Positions 11,915 to 20,003 of a DNA stretch of 58,959 nt are shown here, one piece after another. The DNA comes from Clostridiales bacterium (GTDB lineage Bacteria; Bacillota; Clostridia; Oscillospirales; CAG-272): contig DURE01000030.1 of the NCBI GenBank assembly GCA_012837425.1, forward strand, positions 1 through 58,959. Reading direction: 5' to 3'. The notes below the pieces were generated by a model that was not told where the DNA came from, ran no database searches, and saw nothing but the letters and a program-made list of their open reading frames with translations. Each line of letters opens with the position of its first letter. Position 1 is the first letter of the stretch. The position numbers were made by a program, and so were the translations under genes.

Positions 11915-13177
11915 ATGAAATCCAAAACTTCAGATAGTTTTCTGAGCCGGATAAGAAAGCGGCTCGGACTCAGGGCGGCCGGCGAAATACGCCTTGACCG
12001 GGATGACCTTGCGGGAATCTTCAATCCCCATTACGCCCGTGCAGCCGATGTCTGCCATCTTATCGGATATGCAGCATGCGCGCTTTTGATTGTCTTCCTG
12101 CTCGGCGCGGTGCTGCTCAATATCGGGGACGTCACCTACGAAAACCTGTATTATTTTGTCAAAGACTTCGGCGCTGTAGTGTCCACAGATGACTTCGGCG
12201 CCTCACCTGTGATTTACAGCTATGCAGAGGACCGGACCTATGCCGGGTACAAGGGCGGAATAGTAACCTCGGGCGGCGGGGTGGTTACGGTATTTTCGGC
12301 AACCGGCCGGAAAACCGCCGGATTTTACACCGGATATTCAAACCCCAGGGTCTGCACCTCGTCAAAATACATACTTGTCTTTGACCTGGGCGGCCGGGAA
12401 TACTCAATATACAACTCATTTGTAAGGCTGCACACCGGAGCCCTTGACAACCCCATACTTGCGGCAGCTATATGCGACAGCGGGAGCTTTGCGCTCCTGA
12501 GCTCCGAGGGGGAATACAAATCCGTGATATACCGGTACAATTCAAGGTTTGAGAAATCTGCCGCGTATTATTATAGTGATTATGTAATATCTATGTCGCT
12601 GTCGGCCGACGGCAGGTATCTCATAGTCTCGCCGGTCGGCACAAACCGGGCTTCGCTTTCCTCGCGGCTGCTTTTGTATGAGGAGAGGAGCGAGGAGCCG
12701 CAATTGCTTGACTGGGACATCCCCGGACTGGTACTGACCTGCGGGGTGGAAAACGAATCGTCTTTGAGTGGCGAGACTATATTCTACCATTACGCAACAG
12801 CCGATTCAATCCTTGTTGGGGGCTGGGGAGATGTTCCGCAGAAAATCGCGCTCGAGGGCGCGGAGCTGGTCTGTCTTGATTCCGACAGGGAAGGGCTGGC
12901 TGCCCTGTTGGCCGACAAGGACGGGTATGTTCTGCATATAATCCCCTACAAAGGCGTGCCGGCCACAGTAAGGCTTGACGAAAAAGCTTTAAAAATAAGT
13001 AAGTACGAAAACATGGTTTTTATTCTCTTCCCCGAAAAAGCGGCGCGGTATAATATAGATAACAAAGAGCTGAAAACCCTATCCTGCGACCCCGGGGCTG
13101 AAGATATAGTAGTCTCCTCTCTGAGTTATATATATATCACCTACGCATCAAGGGCAGTGAGCGTCGGCTTCGATTAA
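11915..13177 (+). CDS. DUF5711 family membrane-anchored protein
   Basis: A 420-residue protein with a basic cytoplasmic N-terminus, one membrane helix (about 45-70) and a long extracytoplasmic region with repeated beta-strand-like segments (SADGRYLIVSP, GSFALLSSEGEYKS), suggesting a beta-propeller-like fold. It matches the DUF5711 pattern; no enzyme motif is visible. The ATG at 11915 has AAGAGGTGA just upstream. It is followed 20 nt later by the CvpA-like gene, so the pair may work at the cell surface. Confidence 0.75.
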   Translation: MKSKTSDSFLSRIRKRLGLRAAGEIRLDRDDLAGIFNPHYARAADVCHLIGYAACALLIVFLLGAVLLNIGDVTYENLYYFVKDFGAVVSTDDFGASPVIYSYAEDRTYAGYKGGIVTSGGGVVTVFSATGRKTAGFYTGYSNPRVCTSSKYILVFDLGGREYSIYNSFVRLHTGALDNPILAAAICDSGSFALLSSEGEYKSVIYRYNSRFEKSAAYYYSDYVISMSLSADGRYLIVSPVGTNRASLSSRLLLYEERSEEPQLLDWDIPGLVLTCGVENESSLSGETIFYHYATADSILVGGWGDVPQKIALEGAELVCLDSDREGLAALLADKDGYVLHIIPYKGVPATVRLDEKALKISKYENMVFILFPEKAARYNIDNKELKTLSCDPGAEDIVVSSLSYIYITYASRAVSVGFD

Positions 13178-13197
13178 ATTTACATACGGAGGACTAT

Positions 13198-13893
13198 ATG
13201 AATTACGTGCTTGATTTGGCGGTTATACTTATCGTGCTTGGCACGGTCTTAACCTACTACAAAAAAGGTTTTGTCAGGGCTGTGCTCGGGTTCGGGAAGG
13301 TAATTCTGGCCGCCCTGATTTCGGCCTTGTTCGGCAAGGGGCTCGGTGTTATAATAGACGGCAGGTACATGAACGCCAGGGTTACCGACTCGGTTTTCGG
13401 TTCGATCTCAAAGATGTACGATGCCGGCTCCTCGGTATTCGACCTCTCAAAGCTGGCCGAAAAAATTCCCTCCTCGCTGGCAACCCTCGCTGAGAGGTGC
13501 GGGGTGGATTTAGGCGCGCTCGCCTCACAGTATGCCGGCGACACGGCGGCGACGGGCGAGCGGCTTCGCGAGGTCGCGGCTGCAATTGCAGCCCCAATCT
13601 CGGCCTTAATCTCAAAGATTTTGGGCTATGTGCTGGTCTTTGCGGCAGCCTATCTGGTGCTGCTGATTGCAGGCTTTATAATAGAGAAGGTGGCCGAGCT
13701 GCCGGTTATCCGTTCGGTCAACAAGCTCCTCGGCCTTTTGCTCGGCCTTGTGTGCGCCGTTGTTTATACCTTCCTGTTTGTCCTGGTTACAAATGCGGTA
13801 ATATATTTTGTGGTTGCCTCGGGAGACCAGTCGGCTACTCTGGATGTTATCAATAAAACCTTTATATTTAAGTTTATTGCCGCCCTGTTATGA
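13198..13893 (+). CDS. CvpA family membrane protein
   Basis: A 231-residue protein with four predicted membrane segments (about 3-15, 24-44, 140-165, 178-205) and the CvpA-like N-terminus (AVILIVLGTVLTYYKKGFVRA). CvpA-family proteins (named for colicin V production) are linked to envelope homeostasis; the molecular role is unclear. GGAGG lies seven nt before the ATG. The stop overlaps the start of the phosphatidyltransferase gene (ATGA). Confidence 0.8.
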   Translation: MNYVLDLAVILIVLGTVLTYYKKGFVRAVLGFGKVILAALISALFGKGLGVIIDGRYMNARVTDSVFGSISKMYDAGSSVFDLSKLAEKIPSSLATLAERCGVDLGALASQYAGDTAATGERLREVAAAIAAPISALISKILGYVLVFAAAYLVLLIAGFIIEKVAELPVIRSVNKLLGLLLGLVCAVVYTFLFVLVTNAVIYFVVASGDQSATLDVINKTFIFKFIAALL

Positions 13894-14456
13894 AAATTAG
13901 GATTAAGAAAGAAAATATCCCTAATTATCTCTGCATTTTCAGGATGCAATTGGTTTTTGTTTTCTTGGTTTTTATGTTTTATGACTTCCCGGAATACCGC
14001 ATTGCCGCAGCCGTGACATATCTTGTAGCAAGCGCCACCGACATACTTGACGGCTGGTTGGCCAGGCGCTATGGGTGGGTAAGCCGCACCGGTAAGATTC
14101 TTGACCCTCTGGCAGACAAGCTGTTTCATATGACCGTACTCGTCAGCTTTACAATAAAGGAACTGCTCCCGCCGTGGCTGGCGTTTCCTTTTGTGCTGAA
14201 AGAGCTTGTCCAGCTGACCCTCGGCTACCTGATGATAAAAAAGCGCAATGTAGTGGTCCGAAGCAGTTGGTACGGCAAGCTTGCAGGTGCCGCACTATGT
14301 CTTGCCGGATTGTTTGCGCTCATGGTAGCCGAAAATATTGAAAAATACAGGCTTATAATTAACACCGCATACGCCGCGATTCTTGTACTCATGCTGCTTG
14401 TCATGGTTATGTATGTGGCAAAATACATAAATGTCAAGTCAGAAGAGGAAACTTGA
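13890..14456 (+). CDS. CDP-alcohol phosphatidyltransferase (PgsA-like)
   Basis: An integral membrane enzyme that exchanges CMP on CDP-diacylglycerol for an alcohol. The full active-site pattern is present: D-x2-D-G-x2-A-R-x8-G-x3-D-x3-D, seen as DILDGWLAR followed by GKILDPLAD (about residues 50-75). Length (188) and topology fit PgsA, which makes phosphatidylglycerol phosphate, but the family also includes other headgroup transferases. It overlaps cvpA by 4 nt. Confidence 0.85.
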   Translation: MKIRIKKENIPNYLCIFRMQLVFVFLVFMFYDFPEYRIAAAVTYLVASATDILDGWLARRYGWVSRTGKILDPLADKLFHMTVLVSFTIKELLPPWLAFPFVLKELVQLTLGYLMIKKRNVVVRSSWYGKLAGAALCLAGLFALMVAENIEKYRLIINTAYAAILVLMLLVMVMYVAKYINVKSEEET

Positions 14457-14557
14457 TAGGTCTGACAATCGTCTTATTAGGCGGAGAATTGCTGCCGTAT
14501 GTAATAAATACTGTTGCTGTATTCTCTTCGAAGCTAAAGAAAGTGAAGAAAAAACTT

Positions 14558-16879
14558 ATGGTATTATGTTCCAAATGCAAAAAAAGGGTCGCCGCCATTT
14601 TTGTGACCAAGGTGGAAAACGGAGAAAAGGTCACCGAGGGACTCTGCCTGCGGTGCGCCAAAGAGCTCGGCCTTCCGGTCGACAATGTACTTGGCGACAT
14701 AATGGGAAAGCTCGGAATTACCCCTGAGCAGCTTGAAAACATGGAGCGGGACGTCACCCAGCTGATAAACAGCGAGGGTGGCCTGCCTTCCGACGCTGAC
14801 GATACCGAAGACGGCGGGGCGCCGGCAATTGATTTTCCCAAGCTTTTCAGGGACAGCGGGCTTTTTGCCGACCCTAAGGACGGAAAGAAACGCGAAAAAG
14901 AGGCAGACCGGAAAAAAGAAGCTGATTCCAGGTCAAAAACCGAGAAAAAGTATAAATTTCTCGACACATATTGCCGAAATCTGACCAAGCTCGCCGTCGA
15001 GGGCAAGCTTGACCGGATAGTCGGGCGCGAGCGCGAGCTGGCGCGCGTAATCCAGATTCTCTGCCGCCGCCAGAAAAACAACCCCTGCCTTATCGGTGAG
15101 CCCGGCGTGGGCAAGACCGCCATTGCCGAGGCGCTGGCCCAGCGTATTGCCGACCGGGATGTCCCCTACAAGCTTATGGGCAGGGAGCTTTATCTGGTGG
15201 ATATGACCGCCCTTGTCGCCGGCACGCAGTTCCGCGGACAGTTTGAGTCAAGGATCTTAGGCCTTCTCTCGGAGGTGAGGGAGTCGGGCAGGGTAATCCT
15301 GTTTATCGACGAGGTTCACAATATAGTCGGGGCGGGGGACGCCGAGGGCAGCATGAATGCCGCCAATATCCTTAAGCCGGCCCTTTCGCGCGGCGAAGTA
15401 CAGGTCATCGGCGCGACGACTCTCAACGAGTACCGCAAATATATCGAAAAGGACACCGCGCTTGAGCGCCGCTTCCAGCCTGTGATGGTAAACGAGCCCT
15501 CGGTTGAGGACACCGTAAATATGCTCCGAGGAATCAAGCATTACTACGAGCAGTTCCATTCGGTCAGAATTTCTGAGGATATCCTGCGGCTGACCGTCAG
15601 GCTCTCGGAGCGCTATATCACCGACCGGTATCTGCCCGACAAGGCAATAGACCTGCTCGACGAGGCCGCCTCCCAGGTCTCGCTCTCGAGCACCCCGCTC
15701 AACGAGTGCTATGTAATCCGCGACAAGCTCCTTGAGCTGAAACGCCAGCGCGAGGGCCTTGAGAACATGACCGTCGAGAATGGCGCGCCGACCGACGAGA
15801 AATACGAGCGCATTGCCAAAATCAAGGCCGAAGAAATAAATCTTGCCGAAAAGCTCCGCAATAATGAGGAACTCTGCGCTGATATACAGCTCACCCCCGA
15901 CGATTTGGCAAAGGTTATCGAAATCTGGACCGGTATCCCGGCCGCGTCAATCACCGAGAACGAATTTGAGCGCATCGACAAGCTCGGCGAGCGCCTCCGC
16001 AAGCGGATTGTCGGGCAGGATGAAGCGGTCGACGCGGTGGTCCGTGCCATAAAGCGCAACCGTGCCGGAGTATCATACAAGCGCAAACCGGTTTCATTTA
16101 TCTTCGCCGGGCCGACCGGAGTCGGCAAAACCGAGCTTGTCAAAGTGCTCGCCGCAGATTTGTTCGACTCTCCCGAGACCTTAATCAGGCTTGACATGTC
16201 GGAATTCATGGAAAAGCATTCGATCTCGCGAATAATCGGCGCGCCACCGGGTTATGTCGGATATGATGAAGCCGGACAGCTGACCGAAAAAATCCGCCGG
16301 CGCCCCTACTCGGTGGTGCTGTTTGACGAGATTGAAAAAGCCCACCCCGACGTGCTCAACATCCTGCTCCAGATTCTTGATGACGGCAGAATTACCGACG
16401 CGCACGGCAAGACCGTGAACTTCGAGAACACCATACTGGTCATGACCACAAACGCCGGCTCGGACACTAGCATGACCCCGATAGGCTACCAAAAAAGCAG
16501 CTTTGAGGCGGCCAAGGAGAAAACCGAGCGCGCGCTCTCGGCCTTCCTGCGCCCCGAGTTTATAAACCGTGTAGATGAGATTATAACTTTTAGGCAGCTT
16601 GACAAGGAAGACTTCAGAAAAATCGCCGGTATAATGCTCGACGAACTGAAGGCCGCCCTTGAGGAAAAGGGCATAACACTGACCTATACCGACGAGGCCG
16701 CGGTACTGATAGCAGAGCGGGCCTTCTCAGTCAAATACGGGGCCCGCAACCTGAGAAGGTACATCCAGACCGAGGTCGAAGATAAGCTCGCCGAGATAAT
16801 CATATCCGACTACAACAAAACCTGCACCCGGGCATCGGTCACTGTGTGCGACCGAAAACTAAAGGTAAACTGCCTCTAG
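14558..16879 (+). CDS. ClpE-like AAA+ unfoldase with N-terminal zinc finger
   Basis: A double-AAA+ Clp/Hsp100 protein of 773 residues from ATG 14558. It begins with a CSKC...CLRC zinc finger like ClpE/McsA rather than ClpC N-repeats, then a charged linker. AAA1 has Walker A GEPGVGKT and Walker B FIDEVHN; a coiled-coil middle region follows; AAA2 has GPTGVGKT and [18 protein letters not shown] is in the place of the ClpP-binding IGF-type loop, so it probably feeds ClpP. An earlier TTG (14453, after AGAGG, overlapping the previous stop) would add 35 hydrophobic residues; I prefer 14558 because MVLCSKCK matches the family N-terminus, although its ribosome-binding site is poor. Confidence 0.88.
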
Positions 16880-17000: not shown

Positions 17001-19643
17001 ATGAGCGGCATGTGGTACGAGCTTGACGCAGCTCAAGCCGAGCTGAAATTCAATACAAGCATGACCGCCGGGCTCTCAAGGAAGGCGGCCTCGGCACTCC
17101 TCGCCGAAAACCGCCAGCCGACAGGCGGGGGAATATTTCCGCCAAAGGCCGTCAGCGCTGCAAAGGCGGTGTTTGCCGACCCGGTATTGCTGGCCTTTTT
17201 CGCCTTCTGCCTGCTCTCGGCCCTCATAGGCGGCGGCGGGCTCTATGTGCTTGTCGTTGCTATTTTTTATGCTCTCGTCTTGTCAGCCGTCAACCTGCTT
17301 ATTTCTCTTGCTATGGCCAGGACCCAAAAGGCGCTGACACCCTGGTGCAAGGTCAGAAGAGACGGCAAGCTCTATTACGTCAGAGCTGACGGGGTTGTGC
17401 CGGGCGACCTGCTCTACTTAACGGCTGGTGACTATATCCCGGCCGACGCGCTTGTCACTGCCTCACAGGGGCTCAGGGTAAGGTTTGATGTCGGCGAGGA
17501 AAGCATAATAATGAGCAAAACAGACCAAAACCTCTCGCCGGCCGCCTCGCTCGAGAAGCTGCCGCTTTACAGGCGCTCAAATATCCTTGTCGCCGGCTCC
17601 TATGTGACAGGTGGCTCGGGGCTTGCGATTGCCGCGGTCTGCGGCAAGGACACATATGCCGTTCAGAGCGCCTTGCCTGCACAAAAAAAGCCCGAAAAGC
17701 CAAAAGCCTCAAAACCGGCCGCACTTGAGGGCGTTTCGCTGATGCTTGGCATATCCTCGCTCGGATTTGTTTTTGTATACACCCTCCTGTCGCTTATCCC
17801 GTGGTCTGGTGCCGGGGTCTTTGACTCCTTTTTTGCAGCTGCCTCGGTGGCGGCGCTCTGCTCGTCGGGACTTATCAGGGCAGGGGCGCGTGTGGCCGCG
17901 CTCTCGACATTTATAATTGAGGAATGCTCCTTTACCAAGGGGATTCTGCTGAACAACCCGGAAGCAGCAGAGAAATTTGCCGGGATAAAAACACTAATAA
18001 TCAACGACGGGGCATTTGTCAGTGACGGCAGACTCCGCTCTATGGGGTACACCACCCCCGACACCGAATACAAAGACGCCTCAAAAATCCCGGTTGAGCA
18101 CCTCCGTAATATCAGCATGGTCGTCTGGGGCGAGCCGGCCGACCCCGAAACCGGATTCCCCCGGGGAGCCGAATATGCCGCCACGCTCCGGGAGCTGACA
18201 GGGCAGGCCGGCAGGCGGGAAGAGGAGGTTCTGCGCGGCTGCCGGCTGGTCGGTTATGTCAGGCGCGGGGCGGCGACAAGGTTTGACACCGCGGTTTATA
18301 CATACGAGGGGAAAACCTATCGAGTCTGCCGGGACTTCGGGGACTCGCTGATTCGCGCCTGCTCGTATGCCGCCAAAGACGGCAGACTGCTCCCCATGAC
18401 CCCGGATTTGTGCGGTGAGCTGCTCTCTGCACGGCAAAAATATACCGCCACGGGGGTAGTGGTCATGACGACGGCCACAGCGGTGGGGAACAACCTTGTC
18501 TTTGAGGGCATGACTCTCTTCTCAGGAAACACTCAGCCTCCAGCCGAGAGCCACATGGCCTTTGCCCGGACTGGTATCCGGGTTATCTACACCTCATCCG
18601 AGGTCGACGGTGACATCTCATGGTATAACAATACCGCGACAAGAGGCGATAACGTTATAAATTGCGATAGAAACACAAATGCCGCTGACATTATCGCCAA
18701 CCACGACATTACATATCTTAACAACATCTCGCCTGAATTTCTTGCCGCGCTTGTAAGGGCTGCGGGAGAGCGGGGCGGAGTCGCGCTGGCAAACTGCGAC
18801 CCGGCCTTTTCCGGAGCCGCCGCTTATGCCACACTCAATATCTGCTGCATCCCGTTTGATACGGGAGCGAAAACAGGGCGCAATGCCTGCCTGCCGCTTT
18901 ATAATCTGCAGGACGCAAAACGCCGCTCGGCCCGCCTTTTGTCCGACTCGGATATTGTGCTTTCGCAGCCCAGAAACATATCCGGGGGGCTTGAGCCTAT
19001 TTACAGGTGCTTTAAATATCTCTCAGGGAAGGCTCAGGACGCCGCGGTATACCGGGAGTATCTTGTCTCTGTCTTTGCGCTTCGCATGATGCTGATGCTC
19101 GTGTTCGGCATATCGGGGGTTTTTGTTTCGGCCCCGCTTGTTACAGCCGCCTGTGTGCTGACCGACCTCCTGGCTCTTCTTGTGCTCTCTGTCCCGGATT
19201 TGTGGAGCCGGGGCGGCGCTCGAGCAGCCGACACCGATTTTACCTCGCGCTGCGCAATGCCGCGCCTGGCCCTGACGGCGGCTGCCGCGATTCTGATGTT
19301 CCTCCTATCAAGGCTGGCGGCAGGCTCAGCCGGGGCAGACCGGGCATTCCTTTTTGCCGCGCTTGTTTCCTCGGGAATTTCTGTGCTGCTGTATTCTGCG
19401 GCCCGAAGGATTACACCGAGCGCTGACTCGGACAGGCTGATTGCCGCGGTGATTGGCGGCGTGATTGTTTTGTCGGTTATGACAGTCCTTACTGCCGTCC
19501 GGCCACTGGCGGCGCTGCTAGACATGACCCCGACGGCTCGAGGCATAATTTCCGCAACCACCCTCGCCCCGCCGGTTGTGCTCGGTGCGTTGCACCTGGC
19601 CCGAAAACCGCTCCGGAGGCGGGCGGGGAAGAACCGAAAATAA
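17001..19643 (+). CDS. P-type ATPase homologue lacking catalytic motifs (pseudo-ATPase)
   Basis: An 880-residue membrane protein with the whole P2-type ATPase plan: N-terminal segment (WYELDAAQAEL, GLSRKAA), M1-M2 (about 60-105), actuator domain (VVPGDLLYLTAGDYIPADA, then NILVAGSYVTGG), M3-M4, cytoplasmic loop, SDSDIVLSQ hinge-end motif, and about six C-terminal helices. Working residues are missing: the phosphorylation motif DKTGT is NDGAF (D336 kept, KTGT lost); the TGES loop is GEES (165-168); M4 PEGL is SSGL (288-291); no GDGxND is present; the nucleotide-site KGA is absent. The frame is open with no stops, so this is a maintained protein, not a decayed gene. AAGGTGAT precedes ATG. It is unlikely to pump ions; a regulatory or scaffold role is possible. 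Confidence 0.85.
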   Translation: MSGMWYELDAAQAELKFNTSMTAGLSRKAASALLAENRQPTGGGIFPPKAVSAAKAVFADPVLLAFFAFCLLSALIGGGGLYVLVVAIFYALVLSAVNLLISLAMARTQKALTPWCKVRRDGKLYYVRADGVVPGDLLYLTAGDYIPADALVTASQGLRVRFDVGEESIIMSKTDQNLSPAASLEKLPLYRRSNILVAGSYVTGGSGLAIAAVCGKDTYAVQSALPAQKKPEKPKASKPAALEGVSLMLGISSLGFVFVYTLLSLIPWSGAGVFDSFFAAASVAALCSSGLIRAGARVAALSTFIIEECSFTKGILLNNPEAAEKFAGIKTLIINDGAFVSDGRLRSMGYTTPDTEYKDASKIPVEHLRNISMVVWGEPADPETGFPRGAEYAATLRELTGQAGRREEEVLRGCRLVGYVRRGAATRFDTAVYTYEGKTYRVCRDFGDSLIRACSYAAKDGRLLPMTPDLCGELLSARQKYTATGVVVMTTATAVGNNLVFEGMTLFSGNTQPPAESHMAFARTGIRVIYTSSEVDGDISWYNNTATRGDNVINCDRNTNAADIIANHDITYLNNISPEFLAALVRAAGERGGVALANCDPAFSGAAAYATLNICCIPFDTGAKTGRNACLPLYNLQDAKRRSARLLSDSDIVLSQPRNISGGLEPIYRCFKYLSGKAQDAAVYREYLVSVFALRMMLMLVFGISGVFVSAPLVTAACVLTDLLALLVLSVPDLWSRGGARAADTDFTSRCAMPRLALTAAAAILMFLLSRLAAGSAGADRAFLFAALVSSGISVLLYSAARRITPSADSDRLIAAVIGGVIVLSVMTVLTAVRPLAALLDMTPTARGIISATTLAPPVVLGALHLARKPLRRRAGKNRK

Positions 19644-19680: not shown

Positions 19681-19712
19681 ATTGAATGAATACATACAAG
19701 GGGGACTGCGGT

Positions 19713-20003
19713 ATGCGCGTCTGCAGCACGGCCGAGCTACGCCGGAAGGAAGTTATCAATCTCTGCGACGGCTCAAGGCTTGGATTTGCCTGCGATTTTG
19801 AATTCGACATCGACGAGGGAAAGATTTTAGCTCTGATAATTAGCGGCCAGGAGGGCTTTTTCGGCTTCGGAAAATGCGCCGATATATTTATCGGCTGGGA
19901 GAGAATCCAGTGTATCGGCGAGGATACCATATTGGTTAAAATCCCGACCGGGGAGTTTGCCTGCTGCGAGCGGCCGAGAAAAAAGGGAGCATGGTTCAGA
20001 TAA
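19713..20003 (+). CDS. YlmC/YmxH family PRC-barrel sporulation protein
   Basis: A 96-residue protein opening MRVCSTAELRRKEVINLCDG, the hallmark N-terminus of the YlmC/YmxH family, followed by a PRC-barrel-like core (DFEFDIDEGKILALII, WERIQCIGEDTILV). The family is restricted to endospore formers and is named for sporulation; its molecular role is unknown. The start at 19713 is chosen over the upstream ATG at 19686 because AGGGGG lies eight nt before it and family members begin there. Confidence 0.85.
   Translation: MRVCSTAELRRKEVINLCDGSRLGFACDFEFDIDEGKILALIISGQEGFFGFGKCADIFIGWERIQCIGEDTILVKIPTGEFACCERPRKKGAWFR

Follow-up and report, generated by a model that had tools for sequence, protein, structure and literature searches.

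Why would a bacterium retain, at full length, a protein built like an ion pump from which the residues that drive pumping have been lost? The question is posed by a gene in the stretch of 58,959 nucleotides analysed here (the window; contig DURE01000030.1, assembly GCA_012837425.1, Clostridiales bacterium), whose product is a catalytically dead homologue of P2-type ATPases, hereafter the pseudo-pump (Table 1).

A pump-like protein without catalytic motifs

A preliminary description of this DNA, made from the letters alone, had reported a stop-free frame of 880 codons, and this frame is indeed present. At the GC content of the gene, random sequence would leave a frame of this length open with a chance of about 4e-14, and the ATG is preceded by AAGGTG, a ribosome-site-like sequence. 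TGES, PEGL, DKTGT, KGA and GDGxND are all absent from the protein, and a YlmC/YmxH sporulation-type gene lies directly downstream, both as described. The statement that the Asp of DKTGT was kept in NDGAF is not supported: when positions are counted without gaps from the preceding helix through LIINDGAF, Asn falls on the phosphorylation site and Asp on the position of the Lys. The actuator domain PF00122 is the sole Pfam match of the protein (3e-12), and its NCBIfam matches are P2-type and weak.

Table 1. Features of the pseudo-pump locus in the window.
Positions	Strand	Feature	Remarks
14453..16879	+	ClpE-type AAA+ unfoldase, directly upstream of the pseudo-pump	N-terminal C-x2-C-x22-C-x2-C, two Walker A motifs, IGY loop
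16900..16930	+	Hairpin resembling a terminator, in the spacer behind clpE	Also in a congeneric species
17001..19643	+	Catalytically dead P2-type ATPase homologue (pseudo-pump)	880 aa, ten predicted membrane helices
17403..17447	+	Actuator-domain core GDLLYLTAGDYIPAD	Retained
17490..17504	+	VGEES where the actuator loop TGES is expected	Columns read G-E-E-S
17859..17873	+	CSSGL where (I)PEGL of M4 is expected	Glu of 57/65 relatives is Gly in the window copy
18003..18017	+	NDGAF where DKTGT is expected	Gap-free: D to N, K to D, T to G, G to A, T to F
18792..18815	+	NCDPAFSG, counterpart of ADIGxxMG	GDGxND just before it deleted in the window copy
18981..18995	+	SGGLE	Family signature GG(F) versus DDNF of pumps
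19077..19094	+	ALRMML in M5	Arg at the place of the SERCA ion ligand Glu771 (Arg/Lys in 63/64 members)
19140..19178	+	M6 segment	Asp at the SERCA Asp800 place retained, Asn796 place lost
19686..20003	+	YlmC/YmxH sporulation-type gene, next downstream	

The regions of a P2-type pump had also been described as kept, and structure prediction of the P-domain had been suggested as a check. AlphaFold2 models of the window protein (pLDDT 78.5, pTM 0.77) and of L061, a core member of its family (pLDDT 85.6, pTM 0.84), both match complete P2 pumps of the PDB in Foldseek searches (SPCA1, LMCA1, SERCA and Na,K-ATPase), so that a complete pump fold is predicted. LMCA1 is likewise the closest solved protein by the sequence profile of the family (2.6e-129). 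The TM-scores of L061 reach 0.72-0.78 with several E1 structures and lie mostly near 0.50-0.57 with E2-state structures. We read this as a predicted fold held near E1, with the reservation that AlphaFold2 may itself prefer the E1 state.

A single family of dead pumps

A search of genome contigs with the window protein alone gave no match, because this copy is too divergent. The homologue search proposed earlier was carried by a profile (A1) built from twelve full-length dead homologues; among 395 genomes of the GTDB family to which the window belongs, it found dead relatives in at least 148. All 150 matches listed, from these 148 genomes, score at least 462 bits, and the intact pumps compared score at most 427 bits. 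The number of genomes is a lower bound, with two candidates scored per genome; beyond the matches listed, additional copies lie behind clpE in G008, G018, G072 and G081. The homologues are full-length (about 890-1300 residues) and devoid of DKTGT and GDGxND; TGES and PEGL are missing from nearly all of them. An assembly artefact or a frame-shifted pseudogene was considered as an account of the family and rejected, as long relatives, nearly all without internal stops, occur in at least 148 genomes. Those relatives that carry names belong to uncultured gut Clostridia ("Oscillospiraceae bacterium", "Clostridia bacterium", Candidatus Flemingibacterium merdigallinarum); the record titles of many mention ruminants, deer or chickens. 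In an order-level search of 394 genomes, every match outside the GTDB family had intact DKTGT and GDGxND. A class-wide scan of 391 genomes with a C-terminal profile found no core-like members; it was blind to divergent copies like that of the window, and its set held no positive control.

Membership of the P-type ATPase superfamily depends on what is asked of a member. By descent and fold it is met, with predicted A, N and P domains and ten membrane helices in P2 order; PF00122 is found in 48 of 48 members scanned and PF00689 and PF00690, for the N- and C-terminal membrane domains of pumps, in most. As enzymes the proteins do not qualify, since they have no phosphorylated Asp in DKTGT, no TGES loop and no GDGxND, and the Pfam hydrolase domain is recognized in just 4/48. 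In a maximum-likelihood tree, 65 dead copies form a single clade on a long stem (support 0.76), and no intact pump falls inside it. Close homologues with intact motifs would have refuted the preliminary description; the intact pumps lie outside the clade. Judged by its sequences, this is a P2A-type family that died once, losing phosphoryl transfer while keeping the whole fold, the latter by prediction.

Replacements are conserved and the family is under selection

Residues were assigned to SERCA numbering by motif matching in 65 aligned members (64 at some columns), and the full catalytic set is present in none of the 65. The column of the phosphorylated D351 holds Pro in 43/65 members and Asn in the window copy; the sole member with Asp there lacks T353, D703 and D707. 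A one-column reading of DKTGT as KEGAF, with Asp changed to Lys, was rejected in favour of the gap-free alignment, in which Asp has become Pro and the Lys is kept. The T353 column is mostly Glu or Asp, that of E183 is Val, Asn, Ala or another residue in most members, R560 is mostly Leu, K515 mostly Arg, and D703 is scattered. The calcium ligands (E309, N768, E771, N796, D800) are not met as a set: E771 of M5 is Arg or Lys in 63/64 members, N796 of M6 is Gly in 61/64 and N768 mostly Gln, with E309 (57/65) and D800 (63/64) retained. DDN before M5 reads xGG in 61-64 of 64. Columns fixed to one new residue in this way are not the product of random decay; conservation of the altered positions across the clade had been named in advance as a check, and the replacements at E771 and N796 satisfy it.

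Most members retain ten membrane helices and two acidic residues of the ion site, and 34/65 retain Lys352 of SERCA, so that one might suppose that the proteins still transport, as passive channels or by ATP chemistry of an unusual kind. Against this stand the joint loss of D351, E183, D703, R560 and the TGD motif and the fixed Arg/Lys within the ion site, and we regard continued transport as highly improbable.

In close pairs with unsaturated dS (0.5-0.8), dN/dS is 0.036-0.052, similar to that of clpE from the same loci; over all usable family pairs it is 0.036-0.21. The preliminary description had inferred selection for a non-pumping role from the open frame of the window gene. At the level of the family this inference stands, with a dead copy in at least 148 genomes, dN/dS of 0.04-0.21 and conserved replacements, and we have little doubt that the family is a selected, non-pumping one. 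For the window copy itself it is limited: no relative is close enough for dN/dS, and there are signs of relaxed constraint.

The copy in the window

These signs make it possible that the window copy, unlike the rest of its family, is a decaying relic that is still open by chance. It sits on the family's longest branch (length 2.60; mean 1.81), retains the fewest family-conserved residues (32/45), has lost E309 and the entire GDGxND stretch, and is preceded by a terminator-like hairpin within the 121 bp that separate it from clpE. In a species of the same genus (G002), clpE, ylmC and rpsB (92%, 93% and 90% identical to those of the window) adjoin one another, and the pseudo-pump is gone; the final 28 residues of the window protein can still be matched in the spacer there (46%, E 7e-4), and this 3' remnant most likely means that the gene was once present and then deleted. 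In G002 (L147), and not in the window, the hairpin, a strong one, is followed by a T-rich tail. Against decay stand a frame of 880 codons that is intact against such odds, an intact start signal, a complete predicted fold and the retention of the family signatures GG, the Arg of M5 and the Asp of M6 (D800). We consider the relic reading rather doubtful for these reasons; no other member of the family is as derived as the window copy, which may be losing its role.

Invariant linkage to clpE

The gene order in the window is ecfA-ecfA-ecfT-truA-DUF5711-cvpA-pgsA-clpE-pseudo-pump-ylmC-rpsB-tsf-pyrH-frr-uppS, where frr, rpsB and tsf were assigned from their own sequences without a family search. 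The upstream neighbour meets the test for ClpE: an N-terminal four-Cys zinc site, two AAA domains and a ClpP loop (IGY, not VGF). Its four-Cys spacing is that given for ClpE of E. faecalis (PMC13125188). Its true start is probably the ATG at 14558, which yields MVLCSKC as in other ClpE proteins, and not the listed TTG at 14453. Wherever upstream DNA was available, at 74 of 74 distinct loci, the gene just before the pseudo-pump is clpE, often with a gap of 0-30 bp or an overlap, while ylmC/rpsB follow in just 9/65 and the downstream genes vary. At one locus (L139, 2246-4564), clpE is split into two frames and the pseudo-pump behind it is still intact. One genome (G013; L100, L101) carries the pair twice, with pseudo-pumps 70% and ClpE proteins 93% identical, through either duplication of the unit or mixed strains in the assembly. 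In most loci, a DUF5711 gene and a CvpA-like gene (11915-13893 in the window) precede clpE; across genera, the DUF5711 protein shares just 22-38% identity, although its position is kept.

Among the usual tasks of pseudoenzymes is the regulation of an active relative. The preliminary description had suggested, as one example, a partner of a real pump, and a protein that assists, chaperones or dominant-negatively regulates a genuine P2A Ca2+ pump of its own cell would fit this pattern; intact P2 pumps are present in the genome of the window, and in one other genome an intact P2 pump gene adjoins the pseudo-pump convergently (L126, 7514-10360, minus strand). Intact pumps are, however, not generally linked to the pseudo-pump, and genomes of two genera (g34, g26) carry it but have no close PacL-type pump, which speaks against a function that depends on an intact pump. 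This partnership is accordingly disfavoured and in our estimation improbable, and ClpE is the better candidate for a partner.

The main rival to a ClpE partnership is an independent membrane sensor or scaffold, which might for instance detect cations or lipids with the Glu and Asp that remain in its ion site, and which is merely co-transcribed with clpE in an operon or stress regulon. E309 and D800 are mostly kept, and the block truA-DUF5711-cvpA-clpE is conserved in its own right, so that operon position alone could explain the linkage without contact. No ClpE residues were found that distinguish genomes with a pseudo-pump from those without, an argument against a closely co-adapted contact surface. 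What such a sensor leaves unexplained is that the pseudo-pump is in none of the 74 loci found away from clpE although its downstream neighbours are free to vary, and we judge it unlikely, slightly more so than the relic reading of the window copy.

A proposed role as a membrane partner of ClpE

The explanation that we favour, and to which we give an even chance, is that the pseudo-pump is frozen in a cation-bound-like state and serves as a membrane partner of ClpE. It builds on the observed loss of motifs, fixed replacements, selection and invariant gene order and on a fold that is conserved by prediction; the frozen state and the partnership are inferred. With the catalytic Asp, the dephosphorylation loop, the Mg2+ residues of the P-domain and the ATP-contact residues gone, pumping would have been abandoned. 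The Arg/Lys at the place of Glu771, beside the kept Glu309 and Asp800, may take the place of the bound cation through a positive charge of its own, and this fixed charge would hold the protein in one E1-like shape. So held, it could recruit ClpE(P) to the membrane as a substrate receptor, an anchor or an activity switch. The more specific proposal that retired P2A pumps became a dedicated integral-membrane Clp adaptor, in which the built-in Arg, standing in for the transported cation, locks the fold into a docking platform from which ClpEP receives membrane substrates, remains tentative and is less likely than not.

That the link to ClpE is functional at all rests on gene order only, and we place it slightly short of an even chance. 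Against it stand, besides the conserved upstream block and the lack of carrier-specific ClpE residues, the occurrence of clpE without a pseudo-pump in many genomes (other families and some members of the same family) and, in the window itself, the hairpin-containing spacer between the two genes. Enterococcus ClpE has been reported to function without an adaptor, and clpE genes are said to be monocistronic as a rule (PMC13125188); a fixed partner gene would make the present lineage unusual. The better match to E1-state templates, for its part, might reflect a bias of AlphaFold2.

Relation to known systems

P2A Ca2+-ATPases (LMCA1 of Listeria, lmo0841; SPCA1; SERCA; the PacL-type pumps of related genomes) share fold, domain order and ten helices with the pseudo-pump, which differs from them in lacking the phosphorylation site, TGES, GDGxND and KGA and in the exchange of the Glu771 ligand for Arg/Lys. 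Pseudoenzymes are well known among kinases and proteases. Among P-type architectures, human TMEM94 (ERMA) resembles the pseudo-pump in state: it lacks TGES, showed no ATPase activity and was seen by cryo-EM in one rigid conformation (PMC12134183). Its status is disputed, with other authors regarding it as a Mg2+ pump, and it differs in being a eukaryotic ER protein with its proposed phosphorylation Asp (D417) still present and without a ClpE link. There is no evidence of a shared dead ancestor, no direct comparison having been made. Plasmodium PfGC-beta likewise contains a degenerate P-type domain, in which most signature residues are lost (PMC6592433); this domain is of the P4 class, eukaryotic and fused to a guanylate cyclase. 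Known Clp adaptors (MecA and McsA/McsB for ClpC; RfaA, proposed for ClpE) provide a Clp unfoldase with substrates and are encoded with it or act on it (PMC13125188). Not one is homologous to a membrane pump, and the usual monocistronic clpE differs from the pseudo-pump loci.

A literature search for inactive bacterial P-type ATPases, confined to open-access papers, found nothing comparable, and a text search of a 2023 review devoted to open questions in the P-type ATPase field revealed no mention of inactive relatives (PMC10654040). The pseudo-pump family is conserved in uncultured gut bacteria and appears to be undescribed. It offers many natural P-type folds freed from catalysis, with which one can ask what use the fold has without pumping. 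If the link to ClpE is functional, it would add a Clp partner that is embedded in the membrane and descends from a pump, and it would qualify the view of ClpE as working alone.

Some pseudo-pumps (L097, L141, L142, L143 and L146, C-terminal ~330 residues) carry long, charged cytosolic tails of 150-370 residues that are probably disordered. In one genus group, these tails end in a conserved stretch like DREFLGIGYLFSEAEYEAIMAEYN, which is a candidate docking motif.
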